Assembly (NCBI GenBank): GCA_017439345.1
Contig: JAFSJJ010000019.1
Location: forward strand, 1-64,000
Reading direction: 5' to 3'
DNA: 64,000 nucleotides
Source: Synergistaceae bacterium
GTDB taxonomy: Bacteria > Synergistota > Synergistia > Synergistales > Aminobacteriaceae
Below, one piece after another: positions 9,280 through 18,116 of this stretch; positions within the stretch are counted from its first letter, which is position 1; the number at the start of each line of letters is the position of its first letter. Made by a program: the position numbers and the translations under genes. The notes beneath the pieces are model-generated. The model was not told the origin of the DNA and ran no database searches. It saw only the letters and a program-made list of their open reading frames with translations.

Positions 9280-10569
9280 TTAACCTACAAGCCAGGTACT
9301 TATTTCAGGAATGTAAACTATAAGCGCGAGTGCTAACAAGAATGCAACGATAAACGGGAATGCTTTCTTGGCGACGCTCATGGGCTGATCCTGTGAAATA
9401 TTTCCTGCTACGAACAAATCAAGTCCGAACGGAGGTGTTGCAAGTCCAATTGATAAGCAGCAGACTAACACGACTCCGAAGTGAACGTCATTAACTCCCA
9501 GTGCCTTGACTGCCGGAAGTAAAACAGGAGCAAGAATAATGATTGCCGGGCCTGTATCCATAATCATGCCGAGAATCAAGAATATAATTGTGCAAACGCT
9601 CAAGACTGCAAATGAACTGTGGAAGTTAGTAATTATGAACTCCTGAACCGCTGCCGTCGCATGTGTTAATGATAAGACTCTGCCGAATGCCGTTGCGAAT
9701 GCTAAGACGAATGCTAATCCGCCGTAAGTTTTCACTGAGCTGATTAAGAATGCCGGAAGAGCTGAGAACTTAATGCTTCTCTCAATGAACAAGCACACGA
9801 TGATAGCATAAAAGACAGATACGACCGCCGCTTCAGTAGGAGTAAAGAATCCTGAGTAAATGCCGCCCAGAATGATAATCGGACACATTAACGCCCAGAA
9901 AGATTCTTTGAACAAGTTCCAGAAACCTTTTGAGCTTATCTCGTCAAGTCTTGCTTTAATCTTTGCTTTATCTTCGCCCTTAGTTGCACAGTAGAAAATT
10001 GCGTAAATCATCAGGAACACACCGATTAATATACCGGGGATAATGCCTCCCAAGAACAATTTACCGGTTGAAACGTCCGTTGCGAGCGAATATAACACGA
10101 AAGGAATTGACGGGGGAATGATGACTCCCAGACCTCCAGCGACTGCGATTAGACCAGCTGCCCAAGTCTTATCATAGCCAAGTCCGACCATGAAGGGAAC
10201 GCACATAGCTCCGACTGCTGCCGTAGTTGCAGGGCCTGAACCGGAAATAGCTCCGTAGAATAAGCACGTTAAGACGACTGCGCAGGGAACTCCTCCAGTG
10301 AATCTGCCTACGAAATAAGCAAAGAAGTTGAAGAGTTTCTTAGAAATTCCGCCCTCAGCCATGATGACTCCGCCCAAGATAAATAACGGAACTGCAAGAA
10401 TAGGCGTAGAGTTTGCACCGCTCAAAGTGTTATCTATTATCTGGGGAATGACTCCGCCTCTGGCCATCATTAAAATCGGAGCTACTGAGCCGAGAATCAT
10501 ACTCACTCCGATCGGAATCGATAAAATTATAGCTACAAGGAATACTACAAAGACTAATAACGCTGCCAT
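9280..10569 (-). CDS. TRAP transporter large permease DctM
   Basis: At 429 residues with about 12 membrane segments it has the usual DctM size. Family motifs include the N-terminal IPIGVSMILG, ILAVPLFILGGVIMAEGG, GAISGSGPATTAAVGAM and IIPPSIPFVLY, and in the second half FTPTEAAVVSVFYA, MDTGPAIIILAP and GLATPPFGLDLFV. It forms the sodium-coupled transport channel with DctQ. It starts 3 bases after dctQ ends, so the two are translationally linked. Confidence 0.95.
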   Translation of the reverse strand: MAALLVFVVFLVAIILSIPIGVSMILGSVAPILMMARGGVIPQIIDNTLSGANSTPILAVPLFILGGVIMAEGGISKKLFNFFAYFVGRFTGGVPCAVVLTCLFYGAISGSGPATTAAVGAMCVPFMVGLGYDKTWAAGLIAVAGGLGVIIPPSIPFVLYSLATDVSTGKLFLGGIIPGILIGVFLMIYAIFYCATKGEDKAKIKARLDEISSKGFWNLFKESFWALMCPIIILGGIYSGFFTPTEAAVVSVFYAIIVCLFIERSIKFSALPAFLISSVKTYGGLAFVLAFATAFGRVLSLTHATAAVQEFIITNFHSSFAVLSVCTIIFLILGMIMDTGPAIIILAPVLLPAVKALGVNDVHFGVVLVCCLSIGLATPPFGLDLFVAGNISQDQPMSVAKKAFPFIVAFLLALALIVYIPEISTWLVG

Positions 10570-10572
10570 TGA

Positions 10573-11145
10573 TTACTTGCCTCCCTCTGCTCTGAGTCCT
10601 GCTTCAGCTTCTGCCTTAGCGTCTAACTGGGTCTGCTCAAGTGTCGTAAGTTCTTTGACTCCGAAATTCTTAACGTGAATAAAGAACATCTGAACAGCTC
10701 TTAACGTTGCGATAATAAATCCGAACAGGGCAACAGCATAAAGCCACCACATAGGCCAGCCCATAGCCGGTGAAGTCTCAGCCCTTGCGCCTTCTAACAT
10801 AGTACCTGCCGACCACTTGAGGCACTCTACGGAATGATACGCAAGAAGAGCCATGCACGCAGCTACGATGACATCAACGCATAAATTTATAACTTTTCGC
10901 AGTGACTGGGGTAATAAGTCAAGTACTACGCTGACTCGTAACATGTTGCCTTTTCTTATCGTGTAAGCTAACGAGATAAATACGCTCATAATCCACATGA
11001 AGCGCGAGAACTCTTCAGCCCACGTCAAAGACTGAATGAAGGGAATTTTGCGCACTATAACCTGAAGCATCATTACACATGAGATCAGGATTAAGAATAT
11101 GACCATAAGGCACTCTTCAAAATGCTCATCAAGCCACTTTATCAT
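10573..11145 (-). CDS. TRAP transporter small permease DctQ
   Basis: This 190-residue four-helix membrane protein has the DctQ signature WAEEFSRFMWIMSVFISLAY and a C-terminal hydrophilic tail (QTQLDAKAEAEAGLRAEGGK). It pairs with the adjacent DctM. AAGGAGG precedes the start, 27 bases after the HMG-CoA-lyase-like gene. Confidence 0.9.
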   Translation of the reverse strand: MIKWLDEHFEECLMVIFLILISCVMMLQVIVRKIPFIQSLTWAEEFSRFMWIMSVFISLAYTIRKGNMLRVSVVLDLLPQSLRKVINLCVDVIVAACMALLAYHSVECLKWSAGTMLEGARAETSPAMGWPMWWLYAVALFGFIIATLRAVQMFFIHVKNFGVKELTTLEQTQLDAKAEAEAGLRAEGGK

Positions 11146-11172
11146 TAATTTACTTCCTCCTTACTTGAATAT

Positions 11173-12099
11173 TTACTCAGACTGGGACGCTATTAAATCC
11201 TTTGAACGTCCTGCCCTCAAGACATAAGAATCTAATCCGTGTCCGATTAACTCGCTTACTTTTCGAGACAACGCCATAACTTTTAGAACGTCAATGCCTG
11301 TTTCGATTCCCATTTCGTCGAGCATATTTATTACATCTTCAGATGAAATATTGCCTGCTGCTCCGGGAACGAACGGACAACCGCCCAAGCCTCCGAATGA
11401 AGCGTCAAATCGTGTCATGCCTGCCTGCATAGCCGCAAGAATATTAGCCATTGCCGCGCCCCGTGTATTATGGAAATGAAGCCACCATGAAGCCTCTGAA
11501 TATTTCTCTCGAACGTGTTTGCAAAGCTCGTAAACCTGATTAGGAACTGCCTGGCCTGAAGCGTCAGATAACGAAATCTCATTAATTCCGACCTTGAGAT
11601 ATGCTTCAATAATTGCGTCAACGTCCTCAACAGGAGTCCTGCCCTCCCACGGTGAAGCAAAGGGCATCGAGATTGAACCGGAAATAGCAATATTGTTCTC
11701 GTTCGCCATCTTCACACAGTCTGCGAAACCTGCAACGCTCTCTTCAGGTGTGCGATTTAGATTCTTGAGGTTGTGCATTCTGCTCGCCGATACGTTTAAT
11801 TTTACTTTCTTACATCCGCAGTCTACAGCCCTCTGAACGCCTCGTGTATTCGGGATTAACGCTCTGAGTTCGACACCTTCAGGAACTTGGCCGATTCTCT
11901 TGAATATTTCGTCAGTGTCCGCCATCTGAGGGACTTTCTTGGGGTGCATGAACGATCCGACCTCGATAACTTTATAGCCTGCATCAATGAAGCCGTGTAA
12001 TAACTCTAACTTGTCATCAGTAGAGGGGATAACTTTTTCATTCTGCAAGCCGTCTCTGAGTCCGACCTCGCAAATAGTAACTTTTTCGGGTAAATTCAT
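11173..12099 (-). CDS. HMG-CoA lyase-like DRE-TIM metallolyase
   Basis: The 308-residue protein has all HMGL landmarks: the catalytic Arg-Asp in EVGLRDGLQNE, the metal His pair in LHFHNTRGAA, and the flexible-loop cysteine in FGGLGGCPFVPGAAGN. DRE-TIM lyases of this group cleave acyl-CoA thioesters such as 3-hydroxy-3-methylglutaryl-CoA or citramalyl-CoA. No leucine-degradation partner genes are present. Its place between an isomerase/dehydratase gene (2-base gap) and the TRAP permease suggests cleavage of a CoA ester made from the imported acid, which is an inference. Confidence 0.88.
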   Translation of the reverse strand: MNLPEKVTICEVGLRDGLQNEKVIPSTDDKLELLHGFIDAGYKVIEVGSFMHPKKVPQMADTDEIFKRIGQVPEGVELRALIPNTRGVQRAVDCGCKKVKLNVSASRMHNLKNLNRTPEESVAGFADCVKMANENNIAISGSISMPFASPWEGRTPVEDVDAIIEAYLKVGINEISLSDASGQAVPNQVYELCKHVREKYSEASWWLHFHNTRGAAMANILAAMQAGMTRFDASFGGLGGCPFVPGAAGNISSEDVINMLDEMGIETGIDVLKVMALSRKVSELIGHGLDSYVLRAGRSKDLIASQSE

Positions 12100-12101
12100 A
12101 G

Positions 12102-12950
12102 CTAGTTAATTCCGTTCTCTGCAAAATATTTCTTTGCTACTTCAAGACATCTTGCAGCGTGACCAGCAACTCCGCGAGCCTTAATCTCTTTCAAGTTGGG
12201 AAGCTCTATAGACAGCGGAATTTCGGGCATTGCCTTAACCATTTCAGCAATCTTTATGTCGCCTTCACCGGGATAGAATCTAGCCTCACGAGCAGTATAC
12301 AGCATGAGATCATCTTTTATGTTGTCAAGAACTGTGTCCTTGCACTCTGCACCTTCGGGAGCCGGGCCGTCGCATAAGTGAATGAAGTTGAAATATTTTC
12401 GGGGAGTCCTGGCGAGCTCTGCACCTGTAACACCTGCTCTGCCTGCGTGAAGGGTATCGACCATGACAAAAACGTTGTCGCGTCCTAAGTCGTCAATCAG
12501 GGTAATATCTTCCTGAAGATTTCTGACTCCTGCCCACGGTAAAAACTCGATGTTGAACTTGAGTCCGAACTCTTTAGCCATGTCTGCAACTTTTCCGGCT
12601 GTCTCTGTGTACCATGCTCTATCACGAGTCCAAACACTGCCCAGAACGTCCGTTGCTCCTAACTTTGCTGCTGCCTCGAATGCGGGTTTATACTCGTTGA
12701 TGTCTAAATCTTTGCGGATTCGTGCGAGTTCAATATCCATTAACGGCATGTCGTACTCTTTAAGAGCTGCTCTGATAGCTTCAAACAGTGCGGGGTCTTT
12801 CTGCGGTAAAAATTCAGGTTCACCGGGTAAATGCATGGGAATCGTTCGGAGGCTTACGAAATCATAGCCTGCTTCTTTTGCAATCTTGATTTGATCCATC
12901 GGGTTAGTTCCGGGAATCGTGAGATAAGCTAACGAAAATTTACGTGCCAT
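12102..12950 (-). CDS. Sugar-phosphate isomerase/epimerase-family TIM barrel (hydroxypyruvate isomerase or 3-dehydroshikimate dehydratase-like)
   Basis: Translated as 282 residues from ATG 12950, because AAAGGAGC sits just upstream and the longer in-frame start at 12971 would encode the ribosome site itself. Xylose-isomerase-like TIM-barrel motifs with candidate metal ligands are NIEFLPWAGV, VMVDTLHAGRAG, NFIHLCDG and SIELPN. Members of the family act as hydroxypyruvate isomerases, inosose dehydratases or 3-dehydroshikimate dehydratases. With an AroE-like dehydrogenase directly upstream in the operon, a dehydroshikimate dehydratase role is attractive but unproven. Confidence 0.8.
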   Translation of the reverse strand: MARKFSLAYLTIPGTNPMDQIKIAKEAGYDFVSLRTIPMHLPGEPEFLPQKDPALFEAIRAALKEYDMPLMDIELARIRKDLDINEYKPAFEAAAKLGATDVLGSVWTRDRAWYTETAGKVADMAKEFGLKFNIEFLPWAGVRNLQEDITLIDDLGRDNVFVMVDTLHAGRAGVTGAELARTPRKYFNFIHLCDGPAPEGAECKDTVLDNIKDDLMLYTAREARFYPGEGDIKIAEMVKAMPEIPLSIELPNLKEIKARGVAGHAARCLEVAKKYFAENGIN

Positions 12951-13016
12951 AAAAAATTTTGCTCCTTTCATAAATTACCGTCCATGAGAGAGTCACAGAC
13001 GGCATAAAGTTTTTAC

Positions 13017-13886
13017 TTACTTACCTGCAAGAATATCCATAAGAGTCTGGCGCATGACATCAAGGGGTACTGCCTGACCGCCCGTCCAAAGCTGAATTTG
13101 TCTCAAGCCCTGATATAGCGACATACCGAGTCCGTTAATGGTTGTAGCTCCGACTTCTTTAGCCTCTTTTAAGAAACGAGTCTCAGCAGGATTATACGTA
13201 GCATCAAAGCAAACGTGCGAGGGCTTAATATATTTCTTGTCAACGCATGTATACTCTTCTTTGCCCCTCATTCCGAGTCCTGATAAATTAAGAATAACGT
13301 CCGTCTCATCGAGGGCCTTAGCAACTCCTGCCTCATCAGCTGCTCTTACGGGGACGCATACGCCTGGGAAGAATCTATTAATCTCTTCGCTGAGAGTCTC
13401 GCATTTCTCTGAACGTGATGATATATAAATTTTCTTTGCGCCTTCATTAGCAAGCTCAAGACACACAGAACGCCCCGTACCGCCTGCACCGAACGAGAAC
13501 ATAACTTTATCTTTAATGGGTATGTTATGCTCTTTGATGTCTCGTAAAGCTCCGTAACCGTCAGTGTTGTAGCCTATTAACTTTCCGCCTTCGGTCTTGA
13601 CGACTGTATTAGATGAACCGATTTTCTTGCACAGGGGATCAAGATCATCAAGATACTGCATGACGGCCTCTTTATTTGGCTTCGTAACTGCACAGCCTAA
13701 GAACGTGGGCATATAGCGAATCCCGTCAATAATTTCCTTGAGGTGGGTGTTGTCTGCCTCGCAATAGCAATAGACCATGTTGAAGCCTGCCGCCTGGTAC
13801 GCTGAGTTCTGCATACGGGCTGCAAAGGACTGACTCAAAGGAGTCCCGATAAGTGCGATAAGTCTGCTGTTAATATCAATCTGCAT
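13017..13886 (-). CDS. Shikimate/quinate dehydrogenase-like protein (catabolic AroE paralogue?)
   Basis: ATG 13886 (MQIDINSRL) is preferred: CAGGAG lies 9 bases upstream and the family N-terminus starts here; an in-frame start at 13943 would add unrelated residues. The catalytic Lys (TKPNKEAV), the Asp in GYNTDGYG, the NADP-site loop FGAGGTGRSV and the C-terminal GLGMSLYQGLRQIQLW are all present. In the N-terminal substrate motif the usual PxxHSxSPxxHN reads PLSQSFAARMQN. One of the two carboxylate-binding serines is Ala, and His is replaced by Gln. First gene of a TRAP operon, so it is likely catabolic, acting on quinate, shikimate or another hydroxyacid. Confidence 0.82.
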   Translation of the reverse strand: MQIDINSRLIALIGTPLSQSFAARMQNSAYQAAGFNMVYCYCEADNTHLKEIIDGIRYMPTFLGCAVTKPNKEAVMQYLDDLDPLCKKIGSSNTVVKTEGGKLIGYNTDGYGALRDIKEHNIPIKDKVMFSFGAGGTGRSVCLELANEGAKKIYISSRSEKCETLSEEINRFFPGVCVPVRAADEAGVAKALDETDVILNLSGLGMRGKEEYTCVDKKYIKPSHVCFDATYNPAETRFLKEAKEVGATTINGLGMSLYQGLRQIQLWTGGQAVPLDVMRQTLMDILAGK

Positions 13887-13935
13887 AGTTAACGCTCCTG
13901 ACATATAAAATTTTTTAGTGAATGATTTGTGAATC

Positions 13936-13975
13936 GATTGCAAATAATTTTAGCGCGTGAAATTAACATTGCAAA
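13936..13975 (-). promoter_or_regulatory. Promoter of the aroE-like/TRAP operon with twin TTTGCAAT sites
   Basis: On the minus strand TTGCAA (13974-13969) and TAAAAT (13952-13947) are spaced by 16 bases, close to sigma-A spacing. The same 8-mer (TTTGCAAT on the minus strand) recurs at 13943-13936, so two TTGCAA palindromes flank the -10 box. That is a plausible operator pair for a dedicated regulator. Confidence 0.45.
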
Positions 13976-14005: not shown

Positions 14006-15247
14006 TTATTTTTTCTCCCCCGCCTGCAAAATCATTATAAACATGACCTGAAGAACTGCGAAAATAGATATAGAGTAATTAAAATACGTCCAGCCGTGCC
14101 CCGAATGCCCTGCCATTACGAATACCCATACAACCGGATAGGACGCAATAAATAAATACGGGAGCGAGTCCTTCCAGCGTGTGTAAGCCTTCCTGTAAAT
14201 TAACACAGCAAGAAAAATTAATACAGTTATTATCATGAAGTCGCGTTTAAATCTTGATGTTATCAGCAGTCTCATAAATACGCGGTAATTCATTGCAAGC
14301 CTGTTATATAAGCTGCCTCCTGAATAGTGCTGTACCTGCCCCTTTCCTGCAAGCGTCAGACCAAAAGCTGAGGAAAGAAATACTTTTGTGAACGTTGTAA
14401 CAGCATAACCTGTCAGCCAGCTCGCAGAATATTTTATAATCGAGTAAATATCATGTTTCAAGTCGTGATTATTATTCCTGAAGATTAAATAACATACGAG
14501 CATGAACCCCACAGAAAGCATCGGAGTTATAAGCATAGAAGTAAAGCCTACAAGAGCACCGACAGCCGCAAAGAGTTCATCAAGATAATAATTATTCCCG
14601 CGCTTTATAAAACGTATTACAAGCAGAGACCCAAGCAGCATAAAGAAAATATCATTAAAGAATAATAACGACAACGCCTCAAGCTGAAAGTTAAAGAAAA
14701 GAAACGCACACATAAACGGAATGATGGCGAAAAAATTCTTGTAGTGATCAAGTATTAATATACACAAAATGAACGATAACGCATAAACCAGCCAGGCACA
14801 CAAGACTCGTATATCCTGAATGGGATACCTGATTAAAAGAGGACGCAGATAAATTCTAAAGCCGTCCCACATATATGAATGACTGAAATGAAGCTTAGGT
14901 GTTATTGTCTCGCTTTCAAAAACTGTCTGATAAAATTTCGTGAGTCCGTCCTTGCCGCTCCCTGACTGGTAAGAATCAATCGCGCTGTAAAAAGGATTGT
15001 CATTTTTTCTGTTAATCGTGATTGCAATGCACGCACCATCAGTGAAATTGTCAAGAAAGCTCCCTGACGCATAAATATCAGGGTAAACGCCCTCTTTATA
15101 TAATTTCTCAGCAGAGATTCTCACGTTCTTATCGAGCAAATTATCAGGAATACAGTAAACAAGAACGAGCAGAAGATAGCCGGTTATTATAATGCCGGCC
15201 GTTATGAGCAAATTTTTTAATACGTGTTCGGATAAATAATTTTTCAT
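14006..15247 (-). CDS. Polytopic membrane protein, possible GT-C-type glycosyltransferase
   Basis: The 413-residue protein has an N-terminal membrane anchor, an extracytoplasmic loop of about 100 residues (DNFTDGACIAIT...YMWDGFRIYLRPLL) and then some eight or nine membrane segments. A late loop reads VMAGHSGHGWTYFNYS. The overall plan, first loop between helices 1 and 2 plus many helices, resembles lipid-phosphate-sugar-dependent GT-C transferases, but no diagnostic motif was recognised. It follows HAD and UbiA-type genes in an apparent operon (18-base gap), so it may use their lipid-linked sugar. Treat the function as unknown. Confidence 0.65.
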   Translation of the reverse strand: MKNYLSEHVLKNLLITAGIIITGYLLLVLVYCIPDNLLDKNVRISAEKLYKEGVYPDIYASGSFLDNFTDGACIAITINRKNDNPFYSAIDSYQSGSGKDGLTKFYQTVFESETITPKLHFSHSYMWDGFRIYLRPLLIRYPIQDIRVLCAWLVYALSFILCILILDHYKNFFAIIPFMCAFLFFNFQLEALSLLFFNDIFFMLLGSLLVIRFIKRGNNYYLDELFAAVGALVGFTSMLITPMLSVGFMLVCYLIFRNNNHDLKHDIYSIIKYSASWLTGYAVTTFTKVFLSSAFGLTLAGKGQVQHYSGGSLYNRLAMNYRVFMRLLITSRFKRDFMIITVLIFLAVLIYRKAYTRWKDSLPYLFIASYPVVWVFVMAGHSGHGWTYFNYSISIFAVLQVMFIMILQAGEKK

Positions 15248-15265
15248 GATAAATAATGTCCTCCT

Positions 15266-15874
15266 TTAGAAATTTTTTACATCAAGGTAATCAATACCTG
15301 CCCCCTGAGCGCATAGTCCGTCTTTATCGTATCTGTCGCCGATGTACAACACCTCGCTTTTATTGAGTCCCAAAAAGTGAATTATATTTATCAAGCCTTG
15401 AGAGTCAGGCTTCATGCAGTGAATAATTTCGTCGCAGCTCCAGAACGCATAATCAGGAGTGAAATTTATCGCGCAGATCTTTTCTTTTACGGGGTTGTCA
15501 GAGTAAATAATTATCTTCGTGCCTGCCTTCTGACAAAATTTTAATTTCTCAAGCAGTTTTCTCCGCCTGAAGAGTATTATGAATCTCAATGGTCTCTTTA
15601 TCATCCAGAGCTTTATAATTTCTTCGGTATTTATATTTATATCTGCGTGTGCCTTGAGTGCTGCCTCTCTTAATTGCAAGTGATAGAAGTTCCGTGACCC
15701 GCTCATGAATCTTTGCTCTTGAAGCCGTCTGTAATTCTTAATGACAAGAAGCTCGCGAAGTCTTAAAGGGTGAACGAGGTAATAAATCACGAGCCAGAGA
15801 GCCATTAAGACTCTAACCGGAGCTTGATAATATAACGTTCCGTCAAAGTCCGTAATAATTGCTTTGTATTTCAT
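15266..15874 (-). CDS. HAD-superfamily phosphatase
   Basis: 202 residues. HAD motif I is DFDGTLYY (near residue 9), motif II is IIYSDNP and motif IV is YIGDRYDKDG. The cap region is alpha-helical and basic (RRLLEKLKF). It starts 8 bases after the UbiA-type gene stops. In lipid-linked pentose synthesis a phosphatase removes the 5-phosphate from decaprenyl-phosphoryl-ribose-5-phosphate; in several bacteria UbiA and HAD domains are adjacent or fused. That role is inferred from the neighbour. Confidence 0.8.
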   Translation of the reverse strand: MKYKAIITDFDGTLYYQAPVRVLMALWLVIYYLVHPLRLRELLVIKNYRRLQEQRFMSGSRNFYHLQLREAALKAHADININTEEIIKLWMIKRPLRFIILFRRRKLLEKLKFCQKAGTKIIIYSDNPVKEKICAINFTPDYAFWSCDEIIHCMKPDSQGLINIIHFLGLNKSEVLYIGDRYDKDGLCAQGAGIDYLDVKNF

Positions 15875-15881
15875 GTATTAT

Positions 15882-16951
15882 TTATCTCAGAGAAATTAAT
15901 TCGGTGTTCGTGAAAAACTTCAATGCAGGAATATGTATTATTAACAGCACTATGAACAGGACGGTCAAGCCGGCGCAGTAAAGCATTAAGCCTTTCTCGT
16001 GATATAACTTTTCGGGTTTCTGGACTGCGGAGTCATTCTCGAACGACAAGTAGAAATAATAACAGAACAGACCGGTCAAAGCAGGCATGAATAATATTAA
16101 TTCGATTCTGTACTTGATAAGAAAAACTCCCGTGAAGAACACAGAACACATTGCGTAAAAGAACGAGCTGATTAACAAAGACTTTTCTGAATAATACTTG
16201 AACGATCTGCGATAGAGTCCTGCAAGTTTCGAGTCATTAATCATTCTGTACTCGGCAAATCTCTTTACAGCCATCAAGAACGCTCCTCCGAACCAGTAGC
16301 CTGCAATGAGACTCACAGGAGGCAGGGTAGACTCAGAGATTATGAACCAGCCCGCTATTAATCTTATTGCGTTATTAATCGACTCAGTCAAGACATCGAG
16401 ATACACAATATCTTTTGTCCTGAATGGCTTAACGTTGTAAAGTATTCCCATCAGCCAGAGCCATATTATGACAGCCAGAAAGTTTATGCTTAACAAAGAA
16501 CTTGCTGCGAAGCCTGCGAGACTCAAAGCTGCCCATAAAGCCCAGACTATCGAGCCTTTGACTCCGCCTGATACAACACTGCGGAATTTTTTTACAGGGT
16601 GATATTTGTCAAATTCTGCGTCAAGATATTCGTTAATAGCATAATTAGCCGAAGCAATGAGACTCACAGCAATGAAGCCGAGTATAATATTAATTGAGTG
16701 TTCTGAATCGAATTTTGATTTCGTGAGGAGAAGAGCAGCTATTGAACCTGGAACTATGAAGAACTGCTTGACCCAATGATCGGGACGTAGTATCTTTATA
16801 TACTTAGTTAATGTCTTATTGTTGTTGCCTTGTTGTTGCCTTGTTGTTGCCTTGTTGTTGCCTTGTTGTTGCCTTGTTGTTGCCTTGTTGTTGCCTTGTT
16901 GTTGCCTTGTTGTTGCCTTGTTGTTGCCTTGTTGTTGCCTTGCATTATCAT
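15882..16951 (-). CDS. UbiA-type decaprenyl-phosphate phosphoribosyltransferase-like gene with a frame-shifting tandem repeat at its 5' end (apparently OFF)
   Basis: The conserved frame runs from about 16820 to the stop at 15882. It includes ILRPDHWVKQFF, the prenyl-diphosphate motif NEYLDAEFD (NxxxDxxxD), FRSVVSGG and LDVLTESINNAIRLIAG, all typical of the UbiA branch containing DPPR synthase. About eight membrane helices follow. The only start codon in the conserved frame, GTG 16667, lies inside the first conserved block and would drop the first helix and the RPDHW motif. A convincing start, ATG 16951 with AGGAG at 16967-16963, lies on the far side of 11 copies of an 11-bp repeat in another frame. 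That frame ends at the TAA 16810-16808; 10 or 13 copies would join ATG to the conserved frame. Annotated here as one phase-variable gene. Confidence 0.75.
16821..16941. repeat. Perfect 11-bp tandem repeat, 11 copies
   Basis: GTTGTTGCCTT on the plus strand (AAGGCAACAAC on the coding strand) is repeated 11 times without a mismatch, 121 bases in all. The unit is not divisible by 3 and has no stop codon in any frame on the coding strand, so each gain or loss of a unit changes the reading frame passing through it. The coding-strand translation cycles through KATTRQQQGNN. Confidence 0.97.
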
Positions 16952-17042: not shown

Positions 17043-18116
17043 TTACGACGCTCTTAATTTATATACCATCGCGAGAATCTCTGCGACTCCTCTGTAAAGA
17101 TCTTCAGGAATTTCACCGCCGATGTCAACGTTCTCATACAATGCCCATGCAAGCGGTTTGTTCTCGATAACAGGTATTAAATTATTTTCTGCGATCTCTC
17201 TGATTCTCTTTGCGAGATAATCTGCTCCCTTTGCGATAACTTGAGGCGCGCCCATTAGTTCACGGTCATAGACAAGAGCTACTGCAATGTGAGTAGGGTT
17301 AGTGATTACAACGTCAGCTTTAGGAACGTCCTGCATCATTCTCTGCTTGGCCATTTCTCTTTGCTTCTGTCTTATCTTCTGCTTGACTTGCGGGTCTCCT
17401 TCCATTTGTTTATATTCGTCCTTGATTTCCTTCTTGCTCATTCGTATAGATTTCTCGAAGTCCCACTTCTGGTAAAAGTAATCAGCGAACGCCATAACTA
17501 ACAGCATTAGAGCTAACCTTATTGCCATTCTCCAGAGCATGTCCCAGAAGCCCAGAGCTCCGACTATTAACGGCATTTGCATAGCTTTTGATGATGTGGG
17601 CAGATAATTTCTTATAGCGTTATAGACCATGACAGCGAATATACTTGCTTTGAGTAATCCCTTGAGAAGCTCAACGATAGATCTTAGCGAGATAATTTTC
17701 TTCATGCCTGTGAAAGGATTCAATCTGTCAAATTTCGGCCCGAAAGGTTCACCGGACATCGCAAAGCCTACCTGAGCAATGACTGTACATGTTGAGAATA
17801 ACACGACTAACGCACCCAGAGGCAGCCACGATGCAAAATATTTTTTCAGGGCCTCCCACGAGACAAGATACAGCCAGCCGTCCTGAAGCAAAGCCTGATC
17901 ACCCATGAAGCGAATCATAAACTGAAGCATTGAAGTCAGAGTCTTCCACATCATAGTCCCTAACATTGCAAGAGCTAACAACGCCGTAATAATTCCTACT
18001 GCTGCATTTAAATCTTTGCTGACACAGACTCTGCCCTCTTCACGAACTTTTTCACGCTTTCGGGGTGTAGCTTCTTCCGTGCGTTCTTCGGCGAAAAATT
18101 GAAGGTCAAATATCAT
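17043..18116 (-). CDS. flhB: Flagellar export switch protein FlhB
   Basis: The 357-residue product has the FlhB N-terminus EERTEEATPRKREKVREEG, four membrane segments, a basic linker (KSIRMSKKEIKDEYKQMEGD) and the autocleavage motif NPTH in VVITNPTHIAVALVYD. Cleavage there switches export specificity from rod/hook to filament proteins. It overlaps fliR by 4 bases. It is the last flagellar gene of this cluster, and only about 90 bases separate it from the UbiA-type gene. Confidence 0.98.
   Translation of the reverse strand: MIFDLQFFAEERTEEATPRKREKVREEGRVCVSKDLNAAVGIITALLALAMLGTMMWKTLTSMLQFMIRFMGDQALLQDGWLYLVSWEALKKYFASWLPLGALVVLFSTCTVIAQVGFAMSGEPFGPKFDRLNPFTGMKKIISLRSIVELLKGLLKASIFAVMVYNAIRNYLPTSSKAMQMPLIVGALGFWDMLWRMAIRLALMLLVMAFADYFYQKWDFEKSIRMSKKEIKDEYKQMEGDPQVKQKIRQKQREMAKQRMMQDVPKADVVITNPTHIAVALVYDRELMGAPQVIAKGADYLAKRIREIAENNLIPVIENKPLAWALYENVDIGGEIPEDLYRGVAEILAMVYKLRAS

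Follow-up and report, generated by a model that had tools for sequence, protein, structure and literature searches.

Organisation of the locus

In the window, which is the whole stretch of 64,000 nucleotides that was analysed, from a member of the Synergistales that lives in the gut or rumen, three genes lie close together on the minus strand, flanked by flhB on one side and by an aroE-like gene on the other. The first (15882..16951, from an ATG at 16951 to the end of the enzyme core at 15882) is for a UbiA-type polyprenyl-phosphate phosphoribosyltransferase (PPPRS-like). The second (15266..15874) encodes a HAD-family phosphatase of 202 aa, proposed to be a 5'-phosphoribose phosphatase, and the third (14006..15247) a polytopic membrane protein of 413 aa from a family without a name, proposed to be a GT-C enzyme on the grounds of its topology, a pair of Asp residues and its gene context. 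The gaps of 8 and 18 bases between these genes, reported in an earlier note on this DNA, are present. Between the start codon and the enzyme core of the first gene, on the same strand, is a perfect tandem array of 11.3 copies of an 11 bp unit, GGCAACAACAA (16819..16942).

The flhB gene ends at 17043 and the ATG at 16951 follows about 90 bases downstream; this is the distance at which the module had been said to begin, although the frame of this ATG is not that of the UbiA core. The flagellar role that had been suggested from this proximity is rejected because the location of the module is not conserved. In two of the five congeners carrying it (G021 and G029) it is found elsewhere, and in G030, which has the closest relative of this flhB, the junction between flhB and aroE is empty. 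Across the genus, flhB is present in 40 of 43 genomes, as against five of 43 for an intact UbiA gene. A run of aroE-like, TIM-barrel sugar-isomerase-like, HMG-CoA-lyase-like and TRAP transporter genes at 9280-13943, also found beside the site of the module in G005 and G007, looks like a system that imports and degrades an organic acid.

The UbiA-type enzyme and its phosphatase

The product of the first gene matches the UbiA family of Pfam. Its top NCBIfam models are PRK08238 and decaprenyl-phosphate phosphoribosyltransferase, with those for quinone and haem synthesis scoring far lower; no equivalog name is claimed, because the clade is divergent and the scores of 75-82 bits are under the cut-offs of 207-474. 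The sole strong match among solved structures is Rv3806c, the mycobacterial DPPR synthase (PDB 8j8j, E 1e-15; 8e-17 with a profile). A structure model of the protein, made from 34 sequences (pLDDT 91), retrieves 8j8j at rank 1 with Foldseek (TM 0.77/0.83) and superposes on it with a Z of 27.8 and an rmsd of 2.6 over 284 residues, the next UbiA structure reaching a Z of 23.3.

The residues of Rv3806c that contact PRPP, Mg and the lipid phosphate were taken from PMC10994848. R22, K28, Y70, N73, D77, K87, R90, Y138 and K191 are identical here and invariant in 34 relatives, K143 is replaced by Arg in the window protein, and Q135, Y157 and D74 are Gly, Asn and Glu throughout the clade. The positions of loops II and IV that have been tested in the Citrobacter enzyme are also kept, barring a change from Asp to Glu. 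The conservation of these contacts makes PRPP the likely substrate, and the replacement of Q135, Y157 and D74 implies that sugar recognition may differ from that of Rv3806c. Both the matches and the model support the prediction that this protein belongs to the phosphoribosyl-transferring branch of the UbiA family, as the earlier note had proposed. Descent from the quinone or haem branches, the objection that the same note had raised, is ruled out by the NCBIfam and PDB scores and by the fold. A comparison of the UbiA alignment with viral contigs found no viral relatives.

The second gene likewise bears out its earlier description, encoding an intact HAD protein in which the DFDGT and GDxxxxD motifs are readable. 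A homologue directly adjoins the UbiA gene in 48 of the 76 clustered UbiA loci and lies close by in more, and in Citrobacter a single fusion protein carries both domains, UbiA and HAD (PMC11127046). When relatives were checked for the three-gene order, this adjacency held in most of them and the third position varied, being occupied by GT87-like proteins in G021, G029 and Selenomonadaceae, and by no gene at the locus in G005 and G007, both of which have GT87-type genes elsewhere. In five loci of Lachnospiraceae (L050, L053, L058, L062 and L071) the gene for a radical SAM protein, about 483 aa long, separates the UbiA and HAD genes. These proteins (cluster 10) match PF04055, with a weak match to a B12-binding domain, and possibly carry out an extra sugar-modifying step; a role for a protein of this type as the epimerase was considered and set aside, there being none at the window locus.

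The third gene

The 413-aa protein has no match in Pfam or NCBIfam, nor in the PDB by profile search, and its structure model, for which three sequences were eligible, has a pLDDT of 42. A family of 15 members was collected. Comparison with the GT87 alignment using hhalign returned a probability of 0.5, and hence no relationship between the two families is shown. The layout of the family, in which a first transmembrane segment (TM1) is followed by a loop some 115 residues long and then by at least seven further hydrophobic segments, matches that described for GT-C enzymes, and two residues in the loop, D66 and D70, are invariant. Six of the relatives that adjoin a gene for a GT2 protein were scanned, and in every case the closest models for the GT2 neighbour were AglJ and dolichyl- or polyprenyl-phosphate sugar synthases; the one neighbour also compared with the PDB has dolichol-phosphate mannose synthase as its best match. 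A relative is found near or beside a UbiA gene in Diplocloster modestus and in one Clostridia genome. The earlier assignment of this protein as a putative GT-C glycosyltransferase is consequently weakly supported, agreeing with the layout, the Asp pair and the gene context but not with any family or fold match.

It is rather unlikely that the protein is instead a flippase or some other membrane component. Such a role would supply something the module otherwise lacks, since no MATE-family or other flippase is found in it and its neighbours are flhB and the aroE-like gene, and it would fit with the lack of a glycosyltransferase family match and the negative comparison with GT87. It would account less readily for the long loop with its invariant Asp pair, for the pairing of relatives with polyprenyl-phosphate sugar synthases, or for the presence of GT87 proteins in the same position in sister loci.

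The donor sugar

No epimerase gene is seen among the neighbours of the module, between 9 and 21 kb of the window, and a search for genes with the ALO domain of DprE1, which was positive in a Corynebacterium control, found none in the 43 congeneric genomes. This argues against a DprE-type pathway to an arabinosyl donor, and makes a ribosyl donor the simplest predicted product; the earlier note, which saw no DprE-type epimerase nearby, had likewise suggested a ribosyl donor.

A donor carrying another pentose, either xylose or arabinose, with the epimerase encoded elsewhere, has a low probability. It is considered because a second PPPRS gene in the same genome, on contig C4, has genes for an SDR and a radical SAM protein beside it, and the reading gains from the formation of xylofuranose by an SDR in Citrobacter O2 and from the change in the window enzyme of the residue touching O3 of ribose. 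Against it stand the lack of an epimerase in the module and of a DprE1-type gene in the genus. The second PPPRS gene (G000:C4:1-2912) is more canonical (PRK12324-type, 181 bits) and lies downstream of the radical SAM and SDR genes, on a contig that begins inside an array of AGTTC repeated 5.2 times.

A tandem array within the PPPRS gene

The GGCAACAACAA array covers 124 bp at 100% identity (score 248), which makes it by far the strongest in the window, and it has no second occurrence elsewhere in the genome. The sequence AGGAG at 16967-16963 is a plausible distance from the ATG at 16951. In the assembly this ATG and the UbiA core, the frame of which runs from about 16829, are in different frames, and the first gene is therefore not the single open frame from 16951 that had been described. 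At the 11 assembled copies, a number taken from a short-read assembly in which a miscount is possible, the frame of the ATG continues for 47 codons and then stops. When the reading frame was rebuilt computationally for 6-16 copies, the ATG was joined to the core at 7, 10, 13 or 16. The core frame has no ATG, GTG or TTG between the array and the conserved domain, which implies that the assembled allele is OFF, and the mechanical list of ORFs gives as the sole start of the UbiA gene a GTG at 16667, inside the conserved domain, because the ATG at 16951 belongs to another frame than the core.

A perfect non-triplet repeat thus lies inside the 5' coding region. By computation its copy number sets whether the gene is read, and G007, with its own array, provides an in-frame allele. 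Judged from sequence, the PPPRS locus looks like a phase-variable, or contingency, locus, switched by slippage and OFF in this assembly. The idea of a switchable decoration in the earlier note appears to have been right, on a ground it did not contain, namely the repeats at the beginning of the coding sequence.

The UbiA gene is found in six of the 43 genomes of the genus and is intact in five, and in every one of these five a perfect array immediately precedes the conserved YxKILRxDHW. The units of these arrays differ, that of the window being 11 bp, those of G005 and G007 10 bp (AAGAACAGCA), and those of G021 and G029 7 bp (AAGAAGC and GAGCCAA respectively), and none of these lengths is divisible by three. 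By contrast, none of 79 relatives outside the Synergistales in public genomes has an array at this position, and most of them start at, or a few codons upstream of, the conserved YIKI(A/M)RxDHW. In G007 the gene is in frame from an ATG; in the window, G021 and G029 it is out of frame with a usable start (three of the four readable alleles, each a single allele as there is one genome per species). In G005 the assembly breaks inside the array, which is borne by both contig ends, and the frame is unreadable. In a tree, the genes of these five genomes group together as a single clade (100/98) that lies within sequences from Bacillota. The simplest account of this distribution is a single horizontal acquisition, with the array added between the start and the core and its unit later replaced. 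A sixth genome, G015, has a truncated UbiA remnant (L021:11933-12376), which lacks the array and the N-terminus and occupies the TauE/SafE-like permease locus that holds the intact module in G021 and G029.

Comparison of the UbiA cores of the window and G005 gives a dN of 0.15 with dS saturated, and that of G005 and G007 a dN of 0.048 and a dS of 0.43. These values indicate that the coding core is under purifying selection, which argues against the OFF allele being simply a product of decay.

There is only a small chance that the module is a constitutive pentofuranose donor system, in which the array does no more than encode an N-terminal tail that is polar and variable, and the repeat was miscounted in assembly, giving the out-of-frame state. 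The tail that the array would encode (QQQGNNKATTR) could be tolerated, one allele is in frame, and the break in G005 suggests that the lengths of these arrays are hard to assemble. A tolerated tail, however, gives no reason why the units should never be triplets or should have been repeatedly replaced at one site, nor does it fit with most readable alleles being out of frame or with the many further non-triplet arrays at the starts of putative surface-glycan genes in this genome. That the window copy is a decaying pseudogene, its frameshift being damage, is highly improbable, for while its ATG frame is broken and G015 retains a truncated remnant, the core shows no other damage, keeps every key residue and is under strong purifying selection, and the break falls exactly at a perfect repeat, of which every intact homologue in the genus has some form.

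Repeats across the genome and genus

The background of repeats was surveyed in about 789 kb of the same genome, with the window and the C4 locus included, using units of 4-14 bp, at least three copies and a length of at least 20 bp. This identified 18 perfect non-triplet arrays, many of which, in the present reading, precede genes for putative glycosyltransferases, LicD proteins, acyltransferases, pyruvyltransferases or methyltransferases. Thirteen of the 18 start directly after a TTGACA promoter-like element, as opposed to none of 16 arrays with triplet units. In this they differ from the window array, which sits in the coding start. The heptamer ATCGGTT forms arrays in eight of the 43 congeneric genomes, with many loci in G040, and repeat-linked genes are accordingly a feature of the genus rather than of this genome alone.

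An extended promoter-like pattern, AAAGG-N0-6-TTGACA-N16-18-TANNNT, occurs as 20 elements in the whole genome (one with a reversed-pattern control), of which 17 are followed by an array of 5- or 7-bp units, mostly before putative surface-glycan genes. Examples of such promoter-linked arrays (among L203-L222) are at C13:12296-12397, C17:11324-11389, C29:945-1064, C36:10484-10556 and 11713-11799, C37:1130-1198 and C42:19132-19197. At four of these loci (L206, L207, L215 and L217) the frame of the gene extends unbroken from the array to inside the conserved domain and has no early start codon. A further array, of 9.8 copies of the 8-bp unit GAACAATC following ATGATAATTATGAAA (G000:C33:2680-2757, L193), lies upstream of a methyltransferase-like frame and is of the coding-start type, like that of the window.

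A proposed phase-variable source of lipid-linked ribose

The most favoured reading, and a probable one, is that the locus is a horizontally acquired module for a lipid-linked ribosyl donor, whose first committed step is under the control of a phase switch made of repeats. The HAD protein, to judge from its family and its adjacency, would strip the 5'-phosphate from the product of the PPPRS enzyme. The resulting polyprenyl-phosphate ribofuranose would be flipped by a transporter encoded elsewhere, and the GT-C-like 413-aa protein would use it outside the membrane, decorating a surface glycan. Slippage of the 11-bp array in living cells would shift the PPPRS reading frame, such that by frame arithmetic 7, 10 and 13 copies are ON and 11 copies are OFF, giving the 47-codon peptide.

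Repeat-driven phase variation has been studied mainly in a few pathogens. Here repeat switching would be found in an uncultured commensal of the Synergistales, acting on the donor synthase instead of on a transferase; with the switch at this position, a single slippage event would abolish an entire class of decoration. As close species have different units at one site, they offer a natural series on the origin and renewal of such switches, and the locus also suggests an unnamed candidate GT-C family. The wider picture, which combines a large repeat-switched set of surface-glycan genes, a phase-variable first step in ribose donor synthesis, repeated unit replacement that keeps a frame-shifting length, and an undescribed GT-C family acting on the acceptor, is put forward with moderate confidence.

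Comparison with known systems

The module most resembles the three-component systems for pentofuranose side chains, such as ORF12/14/15 of Citrobacter youngae O1/O2 (Kelly et al. 2024, PMC11127046), in which a UbiA-type PPPRS and a HAD protein make polyprenyl-phosphate ribofuranose beside a candidate GT-C; here the first two of these activities are predicted from sequence, the PPPRS and HAD components being encoded by adjacent genes. In contrast to the Citrobacter system, UbiA and HAD are separate genes, the third protein has no match to a named family, and the PPPRS gene bears a tandem array, phase variation not being mentioned in the text of PMC11127046. The module also has no MATE-family flippase in the cluster, and for this reason it is not classed as a full member of these systems.

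With Rv3806c and the DPA pathway (PMC10994848) the window enzyme shares the UbiA fold, the contacts to PRPP and Mg and a lipid phosphate acceptor. It differs in that the window has no DprE1/E2 step, a HAD-type phosphatase unlike Rv3807c, and replacements at Q135 and Y157. Periplasmic glucosylation of the GtrB/GtrC type (PMC11127046) similarly combines a lipid-linked donor synthase with a GT-C, and relatives of the third protein adjoin GT2 synthases; the donor synthase of the window, however, is UbiA-type and would use PRPP, rather than being a GT2 enzyme.

Contingency loci of Haemophilus, Neisseria and Campylobacter (PMC2651432, PMC6321876) resemble this locus in having a surface-glycan gene whose coding sequence contains, towards its 5' end, a perfect array of non-triplet units, and in expression that depends on frame. 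They differ from the present case, in which units of 11, 10 and 7 bp have been swapped at one site, on a lipid-donor synthase, in uncultured Synergistales. Within a partial coverage of the literature, no paper was found on repeat phase variation in Synergistetes or Synergistota, on phase-variable polyprenyl-phosphate ribose, or on a unit-swapping 11/10/7-bp switch on a lipid-donor synthase. Hence the type of pathway is known (PMC11127046), and the apparent novelty lies in the switching of the donor synthase by repeats, the turnover of the repeat unit, the host group and the unnamed family of the third protein.
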